Shown piece after piece: positions 1,890 to 27,068 of a stretch of 64,000 nt of DNA. Origin of the DNA: Anaerolineaceae bacterium (GTDB lineage: Bacteria; Chloroflexota; Anaerolineae; Anaerolineales; Anaerolineaceae); contig JAENYZ010000003.1 of assembly GCA_016841525.1 (NCBI GenBank), forward strand, positions 186,001 through 250,000, read 5' to 3'. How positions within the stretch are numbered: the stretch's first letter is position 1; every line of letters begins with the position of its first letter. The notes under the pieces were generated by a model that was not told the origin of the DNA, searched no databases, and was given only the letters and a program-made list of their open reading frames with translations. The position numbers and the translations under genes were made by a program.

Positions 1890-4409
1890 TTACAACAAAC
1901 TGGAAGGATCAACTTCAACCATCCAATCTGGCAATTGCCGATCACGCAAAAAGCTGGCGGGGTCATTGCCCCGCAGTACAATTTGCCAGCGGTAACGTCC
2001 GTACAAACGTTGGAAGAAACAGGGTGCGGGGCCAATAATATCTACGGGGTGATTCTCCTGGCCGTTCCAGGTTTTGAGATGCTCTGCTAATTCAAAGGCA
2101 GCCTTTTCGGCTTTTTGCGAGTCATAATGTCGGTATTCCAATCGCACAAGACGTTTGAACGGTGGATATCCCAGATCTCTGCGGTAAGCCATCTCCTTTG
2201 CATAAAAGCCTGTAAAGTCATGATTTGCTGCCGCTTGAATGGCATAATTATCCGGTTCGTAGGTTTGGAGGATCACCTTTCCCCCAAGGGGACTGCGCCC
2301 TGCACGACCGGCAACCTGGGTCAATACCTGGAAGGTGCGCTCCGTGGCAAGGTAATCTGGCAAGTTCAAGCCCACCTCAGCCAGGATCACCCCGACCAAT
2401 GTCACCAAAGGCAGGTCGAGCCCCTTCGTCAACATCTGGGTGCCAACCAAAATATCAGCCTTGTGGTCGGAAAAAGCCTTAAGAATACGTTCATGGGCAC
2501 CCTTCGCACGTGTGGTTTCTGTGTCCCAGCGAAGTGTTCTAACCCCCGGGAAATTTTGATTAACCAATTGCTCAACCTTTTCAGTACCGGTTCCCAATTG
2601 CTTGATTTGTTTCCCACCGCAAACAGGACATGCCTTCGGCATTTTGCGTTGATAGCCGCAAGTATGACACACCAATCCTCCCCGAGAGTGATGGTAAGTA
2701 AGCGGTTTATCATCACGCGGGCACTTGATCACATGACCGCAATCGCGGCAAAAAACATAGGTCGCCGTGCCAAGCCGATTAAGAAAAAGTATTGCCTGCT
2801 GCCCTGTTTCCAACACCTTCTTAATACCTGACTGCAAATCCTTGCTGAAGATGCTGCGATTTCCCTTGCGCAGTTCCTGGCGCATGTCCACAATGGAAAC
2901 TTCGGGTAAACCCAGGTCCGCAGTTGAACCCTCTCCCGGATGAAGGGGGATCTCGATGCCCAATCGCCTGGCATGTTGAGCGATTGCCTCGCGATGGGCT
3001 AAAATGCGTTTGGGGAGTTCAAGATAGGTCCATCTGCCGCTGATCGCCCGATAATACTGGGTGACCTGCGGTGTGGCAGACCCAAGAAGAACCATCGCCC
3101 CTGAAAGGCGGGCGTAAGCCGTTGCAGTTTTAACGCCACGATAAAAAGGGGGTCGATCCGACTGATCATAAGATTCATGATGACATTCATCGACCACAAT
3201 TAATCCCAGGTCGTCCATGGGCATGAAAAAAGCACTGCGCGGACCAACAATGACGGAAAGTTCACCATTTCTTGCCCTGCGCCAGGTGTCATAACGCTCA
3301 CCTTCGGATAGTTGTGAATGCATGACGCCAACCTGGTCAGGAAAACGTGATAAAAACCTGTTAACCGTTTGAGGGGTCAATGAAATTTCAGGCACCAGAA
3401 CAATGGCTCGCTTGCCCATTGCCAGTGTTTCCTTTACGGCACGAAGATAAATTTCTGTTTTTCCAGAACCTGTCACACCATGCAGCAAATAGGGCTTGCC
3501 CGGGGGTTCATCATGCCTGACACTTTCCAAACCCTGTTGAATCGTCTCCCAAACCCTTTGTTGATCTCCTGTCAGGTCAGGCGGCACTGCCTGGATATAA
3601 CTGGCATCCTCAAGAGGGTCACGCCAAACCTGAACCTCAACAAACCTTATCAAATCTAATTCTTCTAAGGCTGTTAAGTCGTAATTCTTTGCGCCGGTTC
3701 GATCGTAAATCTGACCAGGCTCAACCAGGCCAGGTTCTTGCGCCAGTATCTTCAAAATATCCATGCGCCGATCGTGGACATCATGTACCCTGCTCAATGG
3801 GATATCCAGATCTTCCAATTTTGAAGGCTCGATAGCAAGACAAACCTTACGCACATGTTTCGCCCTGACACGCGGTTCCGGCAAAATTGAATGGGTATCC
3901 ACAATACCCTGCCGTGCCAGTTTACGCAGGATACCGCGCCATTCGACATGCCGCAGCGATGCCTCCATCTGGCGCCCGCGCAGATCACCACGCTTTTTCA
4001 ATAAATTAATAATCCGCTTTTCAAGGGGGGAAAGATCAAGTGAAGTAATATCGATATCATCATTGAGATGAACCAGGGTATCTGTATACTGGCTTAAGCC
4101 TGACGGGAGCATCAGGTTGATCATTTCTCCCAAAGAAGACAAGGTTTCGTGTGCCATCCATGCTGCCAGGGACATCAAACTGGGTGTCAGTGCCGGCTTT
4201 TCATCCACAACCTCTTCCACGGGACGGGTCTCAGCGACTTCCGGTGTCTCAATAAACCTTAAAACCAGACCCTGCACACGTTGTCTGCCGAAGGGAACGA
4301 TCACCAGGGTGCCAGGCTGAACCGTTCCCATCAATTCTGGCGGCAAGTGATAATGAAAACTATCAGAAATTTGGGGGAGGTTGATCGCAACTTCTACATA
4401 AACATGCAT
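1890..4409 (-). CDS. priA: Primosomal protein N' (replication restart helicase PriA)
   Basis: 839 residues, slightly longer than E. coli PriA (732). PriA recognises stalled forks and reloads the replicative helicase. The N-terminal 3'-end-binding domain begins YVEVAINLPQISDSFHY. Walker A is GVTGSGKTEIYL near residue 310, and motif II reads DECH near 405, where DEEH is usual. The zinc-binding region at about 551-598 has seven of the eight usual cysteines: the fourth, in the second CxxC, reads CPRDD. Later helicase motifs (LVGTQMLTKGLDLP, QVAGRAGR) are intact. It is divergent from the kinase gene across a 280-bp gap. Confidence 0.95.
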   Translation of the reverse strand: MHVYVEVAINLPQISDSFHYHLPPELMGTVQPGTLVIVPFGRQRVQGLVLRFIETPEVAETRPVEEVVDEKPALTPSLMSLAAWMAHETLSSLGEMINLMLPSGLSQYTDTLVHLNDDIDITSLDLSPLEKRIINLLKKRGDLRGRQMEASLRHVEWRGILRKLARQGIVDTHSILPEPRVRAKHVRKVCLAIEPSKLEDLDIPLSRVHDVHDRRMDILKILAQEPGLVEPGQIYDRTGAKNYDLTALEELDLIRFVEVQVWRDPLEDASYIQAVPPDLTGDQQRVWETIQQGLESVRHDEPPGKPYLLHGVTGSGKTEIYLRAVKETLAMGKRAIVLVPEISLTPQTVNRFLSRFPDQVGVMHSQLSEGERYDTWRRARNGELSVIVGPRSAFFMPMDDLGLIVVDECHHESYDQSDRPPFYRGVKTATAYARLSGAMVLLGSATPQVTQYYRAISGRWTYLELPKRILAHREAIAQHARRLGIEIPLHPGEGSTADLGLPEVSIVDMRQELRKGNRSIFSKDLQSGIKKVLETGQQAILFLNRLGTATYVFCRDCGHVIKCPRDDKPLTYHHSRGGLVCHTCGYQRKMPKACPVCGGKQIKQLGTGTEKVEQLVNQNFPGVRTLRWDTETTRAKGAHERILKAFSDHKADILVGTQMLTKGLDLPLVTLVGVILAEVGLNLPDYLATERTFQVLTQVAGRAGRSPLGGKVILQTYEPDNYAIQAAANHDFTGFYAKEMAYRRDLGYPPFKRLVRLEYRHYDSQKAEKAAFELAEHLKTWNGQENHPVDIIGPAPCFFQRLYGRYRWQIVLRGNDPASFLRDRQLPDWMVEVDPSSLL

Positions 4410-12829: not shown

Positions 12830-13963
12830 ATGAAAGTAAACGTCAAACAACAACAGCTTGCACATTGCGTCAGCATGGTTTCCAGGGCAGTATCACCCCG
12901 GAGCACTTTGCCCGTTCTCTCAAATATCCTGGTTAAAACAGACAACGGACGTTTGCGCCTATCTGCGACCAACCTTGAACTTGGAATAACCTGCTGGATT
13001 GGTGCCCGCATTGAAGGAGAAGGCGCGATTACCGTGCCCGCTAGAACTTTCACAGATTTGGTCAGCAACCTGCCCAGTGACCAGGTGATATTTACACTGG
13101 ATAACAGCACCCAGACGCTGAATGTACGCTGCGGCACCTCTGAGACCAACATAAAGGGCATTGATGCGGAAGAATTTCCGCCCATTCCCGAACCAAACTT
13201 GGATGAAGGGGTTCCTCTCAATGTCGTAAACTTCAAGGAAATGGTTCAACAGGTGGCTTTTGCAGCCTCAACAGATGAAGCCCGTCCAGTATTAACAGGC
13301 GTGCTGTTAAAAATTGACGGCGATCGCATCACAATGGCTGCAACCGACGGTTTTCGCATTTCAATCCGTGAAGACGAAATCCCTAACGCTGTCTCCCGTC
13401 CAATTGAAGCCATCATCCCCGCCAGGGCGCTGGTTGAACTTGCCCGCATTATCGGCGGGGGCGATGAGACATTGATCATGACCTTCCCCCCCGACCGGGG
13501 ACAGGTCATCTTCCACATGGATGATATGGAATTAGCATCGCAATTGATTGACGGCAGCTTCCCGGATTTTCGAGCAATCATCCCGCAAAGCTTCAAAACC
13601 CACACGCTCCTCTCCACCAGCGGCTTATTGAAGGCATGCAAACAGGCGGAAATCATCGCACGCGATAGCACAAACGTCGCCCGTCTTAACATCATCCCTG
13701 AAACCGATGAAGCCAAACCTGGCACACTTGAAATTTCTGCACAATCAGAGCAAACAGGAACTTCCGAGGTCCTGGTAGACGCCTCTGTGGACGGCATCCC
13801 ATTGTTAGTAGCATTTAACGTTCGTTTCTTGCGAGAAGTGCTTGAAGTAATCAAATCGGACAACGTCTGGCTTGAGACCAATGCGGCAAATACGCCCGGA
13901 TTAATCCATCCACAGGGAGACGAGCATTTTAAACACATCATTATGCCCATGCACATTAGCTAA
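12830..13963 (+). CDS. dnaN: DNA polymerase III subunit beta (sliding clamp)
   Basis: 377 residues with the three-domain clamp length. The N-terminus MKVNVKQQQLAHCVSMVSRAV and the internal LSATNLELGI and TDGFRIS segments are typical, and it ends HIIMPMHIS, close to the family's (V/I)MP(M/V)R(L/I) ending. The ring-shaped dimer tethers polymerase III to DNA. AGGAGAGG lies eight bases upstream of the ATG. dnaN is usually beside dnaA and oriC; here dnaA is not in the window, but an oriC-like region lies 12 kb away. Confidence 0.97.
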   Translation: MKVNVKQQQLAHCVSMVSRAVSPRSTLPVLSNILVKTDNGRLRLSATNLELGITCWIGARIEGEGAITVPARTFTDLVSNLPSDQVIFTLDNSTQTLNVRCGTSETNIKGIDAEEFPPIPEPNLDEGVPLNVVNFKEMVQQVAFAASTDEARPVLTGVLLKIDGDRITMAATDGFRISIREDEIPNAVSRPIEAIIPARALVELARIIGGGDETLIMTFPPDRGQVIFHMDDMELASQLIDGSFPDFRAIIPQSFKTHTLLSTSGLLKACKQAEIIARDSTNVARLNIIPETDEAKPGTLEISAQSEQTGTSEVLVDASVDGIPLLVAFNVRFLREVLEVIKSDNVWLETNAANTPGLIHPQGDEHFKHIIMPMHIS

Positions 13964-17029: not shown

Positions 17030-17045
17030 TGTTTCACGTGAAACA
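17030..17045. other. parS: parS chromosome-partition site 1
   Basis: TGTTTCACGTGAAACA is a perfect 16-bp palindrome identical to the consensus parS bound by ParB/Spo0J in Bacillus and many other phyla. It lies in the gap between the 171-residue gene and rtcA. Confidence 0.93.
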
Positions 17046-17144: not shown

Positions 17145-17160
17145 TGTTTCACGTGAAACA
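17145..17160. other. parS: parS chromosome-partition site 2
   Basis: A second identical TGTTTCACGTGAAACA, starting 115 bp from the first. Two perfect copies in one short intergenic region make chance occurrence implausible. ParB bound here would spread and load SMC near the origin. parA and parB are not in the window. Confidence 0.93.
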
Positions 17161-18240: not shown

Positions 18241-18652
18241 AAACAAGAAAACCATTCGTTTTTGTAGAATCGCTCCTTTTAGCAAAAATTATCTGTTAAT
18301 CAAAAATATTGGCAGATAATTTAACAGAAGGGATTTCAGCGAAGGGAAAAATTTTTTAAAATGTATGTGTTTAAATTTTATGGACCAGGTAATGTAAATA
18401 AGAGGGATTGATCCCCAGGTATACGCAATGGTCACAAGGGAGAATTAATCCTTGAAAGACTCCCCGAACTGCTTAACATGCTAAAGAGTGTCGGCTGTAT
18501 CTTGGGTAGATTCGGAAATATTTAATATTTATATTATAAATTTATAATTATTTATTCTGAAGGGAAAAGCTCTTCAGAATATTCGATGCAGTCGAGCTCA
18601 GACTGGTTCATTTCTTCTGATACTGTTCCTTCATGATCGGTTTCACTGTACC
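18241..18652. other. Gene-free stretch with a possible decayed coding fragment
   Basis: No intact gene. A frame at 18412-18525 reads GHKGELILERLPELLNMLKS and then stops; it resembles the C-terminal helix of polysaccharide deacetylases (LEALPxIIxxLKxxGY). The similarity is weak, so a gene remnant is only possible. An AT-rich tract follows at 18520-18560. Confidence 0.35.
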
Positions 18653-24542: not shown

Positions 24543-25082
24543 TTAAGACACGCTGTCAAATTCCTGACGATAGTAAACAACACCTTCTACGTCTGTCATT
24601 ATTTTGGGCTTGAGTATCTTAATCATAAAAGCCTCATCTGGAACATCTTCATAGGCACATCGAATACCAAAAGTGCTGGCTTTTTTGAAACCAAAACGGG
24701 GATAATAAGCAGAGTCCCCTAACACAACCACAAAGGGGAATTCTGACAATGCTGCCCGGGTTAAACCTTCAACGCATAAACCAGTGCCAACGCCTTGTTT
24801 CTGATATTCCGGCAAAACAGCCAGGGGTGCAAGCCCCAGCCCCTCTATCGACCAGCCTTGATTTTGGATCAATCGAGCGGGTGTAAAAAGAACATGGCCA
24901 ATAACTTTATCGCCGATTTTTGCAACCAGTGAAATAAAAACCGGACAGTTCTCACGTAATCTATCAACCACTTCTGCTTCATCATCACGTTGAAATGCCA
25001 GGCGATGAACCAACCGGATGCCCTGCAGATTCTGTTCAGTTTCTTCCTGAATAGTAAATTTCAAATGCTTATCAAAGTTCAT
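24543..25082 (-). CDS. GNAT-family N-acetyltransferase
   Basis: 179 residues. The acetyl-CoA-binding motif A is LAVLPEYQKQGVGTGLCVEGL. The segment VVLGDSAYYPRFGFKKAS matches the YhbS-type subfamily. The acceptor is unknown. Confidence 0.88.
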   Translation of the reverse strand: MNFDKHLKFTIQEETEQNLQGIRLVHRLAFQRDDEAEVVDRLRENCPVFISLVAKIGDKVIGHVLFTPARLIQNQGWSIEGLGLAPLAVLPEYQKQGVGTGLCVEGLTRAALSEFPFVVVLGDSAYYPRFGFKKASTFGIRCAYEDVPDEAFMIKILKPKIMTDVEGVVYYRQEFDSVS

Positions 25083-25144
25083 ATAAGCAATTATAGCCCG
25101 ATAAAAGAAATTTTATCGGCAACCTCACACAATAAACTTTATGC

Positions 25145-25552
25145 TTAATTCGCTGATACTAAGGCTTCGGTTGAAATTTCAAATTCCGGCGGGTTTTCCA
25201 GATGTTTCTTAACCGCACAAAGCTGTGCAGACCGAATAAGAGATTCTCTGTATCTTTCAGGGAATGTTGGCGGCACCTGGATGATAAGCTCAACCTTGTC
25301 AATCATATGTGTGAAGGGAGAACTGTGAACTCTCTGAATAATTTGGATATTATCCGTTGGCAGCCCTCGCTGTTTGCAGAAACCTAAAATATAGATGCCA
25401 GCACAGGTCCCCATTGATGCCAGGAATAATGAAAATGGCGTAGGCGCTTCCCCCTTCCCTCCGCCAGCAGGTGGTTGATCTGTCTTTATTGTATAGGGTC
25501 CGAAATGTGCGTCAACACGTGCGCCACCGGGAAAATCAATCAGCATATCCAT
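25145..25552 (-). CDS. OsmC-family protein
   Basis: 135 residues. It contains the OsmC fold landmarks GGKGEAPTPFSLFLASMGTCAG with the peroxidatic cysteine region, and a second cysteine in RSAQLCAVKKHLENPP. Members are thiol peroxidases acting on organic hydroperoxides, or uncharacterised relatives. It is the left neighbour of the oriC-like region. Confidence 0.85.
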   Translation of the reverse strand: MDMLIDFPGGARVDAHFGPYTIKTDQPPAGGGKGEAPTPFSLFLASMGTCAGIYILGFCKQRGLPTDNIQIIQRVHSSPFTHMIDKVELIIQVPPTFPERYRESLIRSAQLCAVKKHLENPPEFEISTEALVSAN

Positions 25553-25559
25553 AAATAAA

Positions 25560-26050
25560 ATCCTCTTTCCTATTTTGAATGACTATTTATTGATGCAAAA
25601 AGCGGCTTTCAGGTTACAATTTGCAGGAAAGAGAGAGTATTAATAAATTTATTCACATGTATTAATTAAAGAATCTTTAATTAGTCGTAGTCGTAGGGGT
25701 TGTGGAAAAGTGGATAAAGGGGGAAATTGCACAAGGGCTAACTATATTTACTGGAATGTACTGGGAAACATTGGTCAGCATTGCTAAAATTTTGTGTAAA
25801 TCAAACGGTTTTTTATCAACAAAGGATTGTTGATATCCTGATGAATAAGGGTCACTTTTTTTGAACAAGTTTTGTGAATGGGAAAATGTATTGTTTTTTA
25901 TCCAGAAATTCTCCAGAATCGTGCGTCATTTTCACACAAAAATTGGGTAAGTTATCCACATTTCGTATAAGTTATCCACAGTTTTTGATGTTTTATCCAC
26001 AGTTTTGTTGATAAAAGCAGTATATTTGGAGAAACAGAAGGGTTGAGGGA
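25560..26050. other. oriC: Putative chromosomal replication origin (oriC)
   Basis: A gene-free stretch of about 500 bp. Three perfect DnaA boxes TTATCCACA lie at 25952-25960, 25972-25980 and 25993-26001, at 20-21-bp phasing on the same strand. One-mismatch boxes are TTATCCAGA (25898), TTATCAACA (25813), TTATCAACA on the minus strand (26006-26014) and TTATCCACT on the minus strand (25709-25717). An AT-rich tract with TTAATAAATT and ATTAATTAAA (about 25638-25690) could be the unwinding element. Two parS sites 8.8 kb away and dnaN 12 kb away support an origin-proximal position. dnaA itself is not present. Confidence 0.88.
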
Positions 26051-26060
26051 AATTCAGGAA

Positions 26061-27068
26061 TTAGATCCCGTAAGCATTTTCCCAGGATTCGATCACAATT
26101 TCGAGGCTGTCTAAATAAGCATCTAAAGCCGCACATTTTTCAGCGGCGCGATCCTGTGTCAGTTCAAGGGCTTCAAGACATTTTTCCCAAGTTTCTTTAT
26201 TAGGTGTGTCCCCACCCAAAGTCAATTGAATGTCCAGCCATGTTCGCAGCAGCGGCCAGAGCGCTTGACCGGGTGAATCGCTGTCCAGCAATGCCTGAAT
26301 CCCAGAGACGTAATAGCTGTGTCTACTGGGCTTTAGGTGAACAGGTACATCCGCCTTTTTTGAGATATAGCTCAAATCTTCTTCGAATGCTTTTGCCCAG
26401 TCCTTCAGATTCTCATTTTGTTCTTCGTTGTAACCTAATAAACCGTAAAAACCGGCCAGTACCTTTGGAACGCCGAGGGTTTCTACACGATCTTTCAGGG
26501 TCATTAAAAACCGGCGTGTGGTCAGCGGGGGTCCGATTAAGCCTGCGACACTGTTTGCCCCCAGGGATAAAATATCAAGGCAATGAGCCATCCACACTTC
26601 GTGCGATTCGGGAGGGGCCTGCAATAAAGAAAACCAGTTTTCCCGTGCAGCAGTGGAAAATTTCCTGACTCTTGCCAGCACATTGTCCGAACGATGAAAT
26701 TCAGCGTTAACACTTGATTGGATAAATTCGAGCCAATGTTCATTGTCATGCAAGATGATATTGTAATGGGTGAGCGGGTAACCCATCAATGGATCCTGGC
26801 GGAAGGCACGGTGGTCGGTATATGCTTCACGGACCTTATGATAAATATCCAGGGAGATATCCGGCGTTATGGCGGCGCATTCACGTTTTGTTGACGCCTG
26901 GTATTTGTGAACCAGCACCAAATCGATATCCGTCGTTCCTCCCAGCAGCGGATCTTCTTCGACTAATGACCCGACCAGGTAAGCAGCGTGGATATCAGGC
27001 TCGCTTCGCAGACGGGCAGTGACGGTCTGCCAGGCAAACTTATGGAGTAAATCTCGTGTGATTCGCAT
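26061..27068 (-). CDS. Nucleotidyltransferase-domain protein
   Basis: 335 residues. The N-terminal region has a Pol-beta nucleotidyltransferase signature: LVGS, then thirteen residues to TDIDLVLV (the GS and DxD metal-binding motifs). The remaining 230 residues are helical and unassigned, somewhat like the C-terminal halves of aminoglycoside nucleotidyltransferases. The substrate is unknown. It lies 15 bp downstream of the deoxynucleoside kinase and abuts the oriC region. Confidence 0.75.
   Translation of the reverse strand: MRITRDLLHKFAWQTVTARLRSEPDIHAAYLVGSLVEEDPLLGGTTDIDLVLVHKYQASTKRECAAITPDISLDIYHKVREAYTDHRAFRQDPLMGYPLTHYNIILHDNEHWLEFIQSSVNAEFHRSDNVLARVRKFSTAARENWFSLLQAPPESHEVWMAHCLDILSLGANSVAGLIGPPLTTRRFLMTLKDRVETLGVPKVLAGFYGLLGYNEEQNENLKDWAKAFEEDLSYISKKADVPVHLKPSRHSYYVSGIQALLDSDSPGQALWPLLRTWLDIQLTLGGDTPNKETWEKCLEALELTQDRAAEKCAALDAYLDSLEIVIESWENAYGI

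Follow-up and report, generated by a model that had tools for sequence, protein, structure and literature searches.

A candidate chromosomal origin of Anaerolineaceae, apart from dnaA and with putative DnaA-trios centred on A or C

Introduction

Two described systems come closest to the locus treated here. The oriC of Escherichia coli combines phased high-affinity DnaA boxes with an unwinding element, as does the present locus, and it stands apart from dnaA; an origin separated from dnaA is already a known situation. The E. coli origin is not known to have a tandem-box/trio module of the form described below. For such a module, the reference is the basal unwinding system (BUS) of Bacillus subtilis; the accessible text of PMC8287927 gives a BUS search rule with the motif (.A.) repeated at least three times. 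In the cryo-EM work of PMC10721633 (accessible portions), the B. subtilis protein takes hold of two bases in every trio, the first and the second, and its Asn187 touches the amine of the central one. According to the same portions, a central cytosine supports strand separation in vitro at much the same rate as adenine and outperforms G or T in vivo in B. subtilis, and the sequences that DnaA homologs recognise are suggested to span a range. In the available sections of a 2026 review (PMC13220808), the motif is still NAN, and trio-like KAK boxes of unknown role are mentioned for E. coli.

Here, we describe an intergenic gap in an Anaerolineaceae bacterium. The window, i. e. the whole stretch of DNA that was analysed, comprises 64,000 nucleotides and corresponds to C9:186001-250000 of the source genome (3.2 Mb in nine contigs). 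With high probability, the gap at 25553-26060 is the chromosomal oriC and works via DnaA and a BUS-like module in the way proposed below.

A dense DnaA-box cluster between two genes

The gap, its flanking genes and the boxes outside the unwinding module are as follows.

25145-25552, minus strand: OsmC-family gene, on one flank of the gap
25553-26060, no strand: candidate oriC, an intergenic gap of 508 bp between the OsmC-family gene and a gene for a 335-aa protein
25649-25657, plus strand: box TTATTCACA inside the AT-rich tract; a box with at most one mismatch stands there in 11 of 15 loci of the genus
25813-25836, both strands: inverted pair of weak boxes in mid-gap, TTATCAACA on plus and ATATCAACA on minus
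25898-25917, plus strand: two weak boxes, TTATCCAGA and TTCTCCAGA
25952-26001, plus strand: triad of DnaA boxes, three times TTATCCACA, starting at 25952, 25972 and 25993 (steps of 20 and 21 bp)
25961-25971, plus strand: conserved spacer TTTCGTATAAG between triad boxes 1 and 2, identical in 11 of 15 loci of the genus
26061-27068, minus strand: gene for the 335-aa protein, whose 3' end adjoins the box array

The initial annotation had proposed a replication origin in a gap of about 500 bp filled with boxes, with three perfect boxes at a spacing of 20-21 bp, four one-mismatch boxes on both strands and an AT-rich tract. All of this was recovered apart from the second count: the 491-bp segment 25560-26050 holds six one-mismatch boxes on both strands (25649+, 25701-, 25709-, 25813+, 25898+ and 26006-), which together with the three perfect ones gives nine boxes at no more than one mismatch, a dense intergenic cluster as expected of an oriC. 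In 2000 dinucleotide shuffles of this segment, the mean was 0.2 boxes and the maximum three, so that none reached nine. The remaining window was scanned in steps of 25 bp, with starts at 25000-26100 excluded, and its 491-bp stretches contained two boxes at most. The window as a whole has 24 such boxes against 17.2 expected by chance, a number reached by 5 of 100 shuffles. Since this total barely exceeds chance, the clustering is the unusual feature. Genome-wide, there are 52 perfect boxes, among which the triad is the sole triple within 50 bp.

The triad would represent the DnaA-oligomerisation side of the candidate oriC. It faces right and the boxes of the putative unwinding module face left, i. 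e. the box directions diverge. Triad spacing is maintained in the genus loci; the second spacer, between boxes 2 and 3, varies among them, unlike TTTCGTATAAG. The latter was found nowhere else in the window or in 39 sampled stretches of contigs C1, C5, C8 and C9.

A pair resembling a sigma70 promoter, TTGGGT (25943-25948) and, 17 bp further, TATAAG, was noted by eye at 25943-25971, where it overlaps box 1 of the triad. Conceivably, this arrangement of promoter-like elements over the triad boxes is a transcription–replication switch. It is also what speaks for an array of boxes that merely regulates a promoter of the neighbouring genes. Yet, the pair faces the 3' end of the 335-aa gene, and a regulatory array leaves the skew, the AT-rich element and the trios described below unexplained, which makes this alternative extremely improbable.

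The 335-aa protein had no Pfam or NCBIfam match at E ≤ 0.001, and a motif recognised by eye, GSLL..LLGGTTDIDLV, suggests a putative nucleotidyltransferase. At the other end of the gap, positions 25592-25617 (GATGC...GGTTAC; GTAACC...GCATC on the minus strand), 5' of the OsmC gene, resemble an ECF-sigma promoter facing away from oriC, whose GATG and GTTAC parts recur in 13 of 15 loci of the genus as judged by eye.

GC skew and the surroundings of the gap

Summed over the 120 kb of C9:150001-270000, cumulative GC skew has its minimum at window position 25570, that is, on the gap. A minimum far from this place, which had been named as an argument against the origin call, was not seen in these 120 kb. 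Beyond the window, the skew of sampled C9 stretches is not uniform, being negative in six of eight stretches to the left and positive in 10 of 12 to the right. Chromosome-wide, the skew of the nine-contig source assembly is represented by sampled stretches only, with nine of 11 negative on C1, seven of seven positive on C8 and a single stretch on C5. A genome of the same genus (G010), with a main contig of 2.72 Mb, was sampled at 20 stretches. Here, all nine stretches between 0.9 and 2.11 Mb have negative skew and all four from 2.13 Mb onwards have positive skew; the sign flips from negative to positive once (2.11-2.13 Mb) and from positive to negative once (0.75-0.9 Mb), about half a contig apart. 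The local minimum at 2121780 lies 0.6-0.9 kb from the box array (2120894-2120943) and the trio tract (2121180-2121212) of this genome.

A second, smaller box cluster is found at C9:182739-182787 (L012:12739-12787), outside the window and 29 kb to the left of oriC. It consists of the one-mismatch box TTTTCCACA and two perfect boxes in steps of about 20 bp, and stands at the 3' end of a gene of 558 aa, by eye ABC-F ATPase-like. Boxes beside this gene also occur in G010 and G011, and there are none in G013. The cluster may serve DnaA titration or control; as a second origin it was rejected, for no trio tract appears in the sequence read and the skew is still falling past it.

That box clusters without an unwinding module occur in this region lends some weight to the idea that the gap itself serves, in the manner of datA or DARS, to titrate or reload DnaA near the start point of replication but not at it. 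However, it is the gap and not the other cluster that coincides with the skew minimum, carries the unwinding module and shows the highest density of boxes, and the skew of G010 agrees. A titration or reload locus is therefore very improbable, and the gap is treated as the origin in the following.

Two further markers had been placed within 13 kb of the gap, and both are there.

12830-13963, plus strand: dnaN (TIGR00663, 289.6 bits with the cut-off at 137.65), 11.6 kb from the gap
17030-17045 and 17145-17160, no strand: two perfect parS sites, 8.4-8.5 kb from the gap and the only perfect ones in the assembled genome

The dnaN gene is flanked by methyltransferase-like and PEP-synthase-like genes, not by dnaA; it points towards oriC and would run against the leftward fork. 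The least stable DNA of the window (18495-18575) lies between genes, behind that for an RNA 3'-phosphate cyclase and some 1.3 kb away from the two parS sites.

A probable BUS-like unwinding module

Read along the minus strand from 25717, TTATCCACT, TTTTCCACA, the bases ACCC, the trios and then AT-rich DNA follow each other in the layout of a BUS.

25701-25717, minus strand: tandem pair of BUS boxes, TTATCCACT at 25717-25709 and TTTTCCACA at 25709-25701, with one base shared
25697-25700: C-rich spacer, ACCC on the minus strand
25682-25696: five putative DnaA-trios, CTA CGA CTA CGA CTA on the box strand (minus), the trio strand being plus
25627-25686: putative DNA unwinding element, AT-rich, the least stable 60-mer of the gap and rank 49 of 63940 positions in the window

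This module was overlooked in the initial annotation, whose origin call stands; it is the more unusual part of the locus. Within the window, five consecutive C[TG]A units occur at the trio tract alone. The 4-bp spacer is well inside the distance of at most 16 bp between boxes and trios that is expected of a BUS, in which the boxes often form a tandem pair, and the AT-rich, unstable element expected of an oriC is present at 25627-25686. The published requirement for at least three trios 3'-NAN-5' is a different matter: A and C centres alternate, and neither tandem box is followed by a run of three. Among 35 tracts of the family (see below), 13 contain such a run. Instead, all five centres of the tract are bases with an exocyclic amine, A or C. 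This amine rule was drawn from the accessible portions of PMC10721633 and is not a published definition.

Conversely, the NAN rule lets through less conserved decoys, for instance the sequence that follows box 25993. This bears on a further possibility, namely a genuine origin whose CTACGACTACGACTA tract is not made of DnaA-trios and binds another protein, with opening taking place beside the triad at the decoy trios 26002-26013, where the rule passes while it fails at the tract. Against this, the bases after box 25993 vary within the genus, and the tract lies next to the DNA of lowest stability in the gap. Furthermore, the 3-bp period, the tandem boxes and the C-rich spacer are kept while CTA and CGA reshuffle between species, and a repeated trinucleotide fits such reshuffling within a constant period better than one fixed site does. 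Overall, a binding site for another protein is unlikely, and the tract is taken as a series of DnaA-trios in what follows.

Conservation among relatives

All 24 Anaerolineaceae loci examined contain 4 to 15 boxes at no more than one mismatch beside the 335-aa gene, on its 3' side, and five of six loci from other families contain 0 to 2 scattered ones, the sixth having insufficient flank. A pair of perfect boxes at a similar step was detected in 51 of 61 relatives, with no match for the reversed-pattern control. Together with the box cluster and the skew minimum, this conservation in the family loci supports the initial proposal of an oriC.

The 335-aa gene often adjoins oriC across the family. 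Eleven further family genomes possess it, and their flanks were read by coordinates, except for G031, which was read directly. A perfect pair stands at the 3' end of the gene in six of these (G025-G028, G030 and G032), and in G034 a pair and a trio tract are located 0.9-1.2 kb from its 5' end. Neither an array nor a pair was seen beside the gene in G020, G021, G023 and G031, that is, in four of 35 family genomes carrying it. The DnaA of G031 (L172, L173; representative of genus g17) is 49% identical, and the genome has no match to the box-pair pattern; a search for an altered DnaA box gave nothing clear, and its origin may use other sites. A search of genome contigs with the 335-aa protein returned only two close relatives, Anaerolineaceae bacterium 46_22 and Brevefilum sp. 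(92 and 94% identity), whose loci duplicate the arrays of G006 and G008 and were excluded from the counts.

Separation from dnaA

The source genome encodes one DnaA (448 aa, C1:375922-377268), and the window is without dnaA, as originally noted. By contig ends, the distance between dnaA and oriC is about 250 kb or more if the contigs are correct. In G010, dnaA (2440181) and the box array are 319 kb apart on one contig. The neighbours of dnaA in five other members of the genus (G006, G010, G011, G012 and G013) are those of the source genome, with a DNA polymerase I gene, read from N-terminal sequence, two genes away. A denser cluster beside dnaA had been raised as a possible objection; the 3.5-kb dnaA locus of the source genome contains no box at one mismatch or less, and the 25 best-scoring 500-bp stretches in the sampled genome parts are all off the contig of dnaA. 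Judged from sequence, it is highly probable that the locus is a true oriC standing apart from dnaA. Accordingly, the uncoupling claimed at the outset holds in terms of separate contigs and the 319 kb in G010, but the separation is not unusual for bacteria in general.

In the same order outside the family, eight of 24 genomes (G037, G038, G039, G045, G046, G050, G051 and G052) have a box pair within 0.6 kb of dnaA, so the separation may be lineage-specific. Of the other 16, four lack a pair (G040, G047, G048 and G059) and 12 have one away from dnaA or on another contig. The simplest inference from these box and dnaA positions, taken from assemblies many of which are fragmented, would be that dnaA was lost from the side of oriC in some lineages, Anaerolineaceae included. 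A box pair beside dnaA could instead be a control site of dnaA.

Base usage of the trios

Of the 24 family loci, 23 fitted the extraction pattern, in which the third base of trio 2 was fixed as A or G and trios 3-5 were free; the tract of the remaining locus (L063) was found in the phylum-wide search. On the box strand, the middle base of trios 2-5 in these 23 loci is T in 48, G in 42, A in two and C in none of 92 cases, and the third base is A in 85 of 92, corresponding to T on the trio strand. A family-wide pattern of tandem boxes and trios that fixes trio 1 and every third base, leaving the middle free, matched 35 of 147 family genomes and none in the reversed control. The other 112 genomes fall outside this strict pattern through divergent boxes, gaps or missing regions, counted together. 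In the 35 genomes, the box-strand middle of trios 2-5 is T in 86, G in 49, C in three and A in two of 140 trios; the trio-strand centre is thus A or C in 135 of 140, G in three and T in two. Counting the 24 distinct tracts once each gives T 59, G 32, C 3 and A 2 of 96. A middle G occurs at least once in 30 of 35 tracts and, by eye, in at least one tract for 10 of 13 matching genera, and T stands throughout trios 1-3 in 12 of 35.

Outside Anaerolineaceae, the trio pattern separates far less well from controls. The phylum-wide search gave 19 matches in 19 of 301 genomes versus seven control matches. Four of these belong to Anaerolineaceae, eight to family f12 (middle T 26 and G 6 of 32) and seven, equal to the control level, to others. 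Class-wide, there were 22 matches in 19 of 120 genomes versus seven control matches. Ten tracts from nine genomes were chosen by eye as box-like and 12 dropped, including those of the source genome, G060 and G169, which belong to other tallies; the chosen ones (middle T 28, G 7, A 4 and C 1 of 40) are illustrative only.

The DnaA side of the trio contact was surveyed in 30 proteins (27 from the family, three from other families) out of 61 genomes with a match, with numbering via chain 8btg_A, to which the alignment spans 435 residues. This chain was taken as B. subtilis DnaA because its residues fit the numbering in the accessible portions of PMC10721633. E183, N187, I193, R202, K222 and E228 are invariant in all 30 proteins, and position 190 has I 28 times and V twice. 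Position 196, the third-base contact and Asn in B. subtilis, is H in 26, R in three and Q in one.

Both A and C carry the amine that Asn187 reads, which may be why either is tolerated at the captured centre. We consider it somewhat more probable than not that Anaerolineaceae, and perhaps other Anaerolineae, use a relaxed trio code, 3'-G(A/C)T-5', that would admit any centre bearing an amine and whose nearly fixed third base T (85 of 92) is perhaps read by the His at the Asn196 position. Natural A/C trios appear to be new: no description of a natural C-centred trio was found in the DnaA-trio literature within reach. They look like the natural counterpart of the range of sequences suggested for DnaA homologs.

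Proposed working and implications

Boxes, skew, conservation, period and base usage of the trios, the position of dnaA and the DnaA residues are features of the sequences themselves; DnaA binding, base capture and opening are carried over from the B. subtilis work. On this basis, DnaA, encoded far off and acting in trans, would bind the high-affinity triad at 25952-26001 and the intervening weak boxes to form an orisome. Anchored on the tandem boxes 25717-25701, a DnaA pair may then pass ATP-DnaA to the trio strand (plus, 25682-25696), where two bases would be captured per trinucleotide, followed by opening of the AT-rich tract 25627-25686 and helicase loading.

If the relaxed code is true, a search rule fixed on NAN has hidden a class of origins. 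Moreover, a replication start can be placed for an uncultured lineage, in which the origin stayed recognisable though apart from dnaA. If DnaA selects a single strand via the amine of the central base, cytosine should work as well; the A/C trios lend natural comparative support to this proposal, which comes from one species, and the specificity for trio bases is now testable with natural DnaA/origin pairs.

Comparison with known systems

Within the order Anaerolineales, the origin beside dnaA in G045 (L132) resembles that of the source genome in that a box and trio tract lie on the minus strand (1749) and perfect boxes on the plus strand (2021, 2031 and 2052), with the next gene on the minus strand and its 3' end adjoining the boxes. 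Unlike here, where this gene encodes the 335-aa protein, it is dnaA in G045 (2180-3556), and the steps between perfect boxes are 10 and 21 bp. With the oriC and BUS of B. subtilis, as far as described in the accessible text of PMC8287927 and PMC10721633, the present locus shares tandem co-oriented boxes, a GC-rich spacer, a trinucleotide tract starting from 3'-GAT-5' and an AT-rich element, and the base-capturing residues of DnaA are conserved as well. In contrast to B. subtilis, the origin is not beside dnaA, Asn196 is replaced by His in 26 of the 30 DnaA proteins examined, and the central trio base, which is A in B. subtilis, is A or C.
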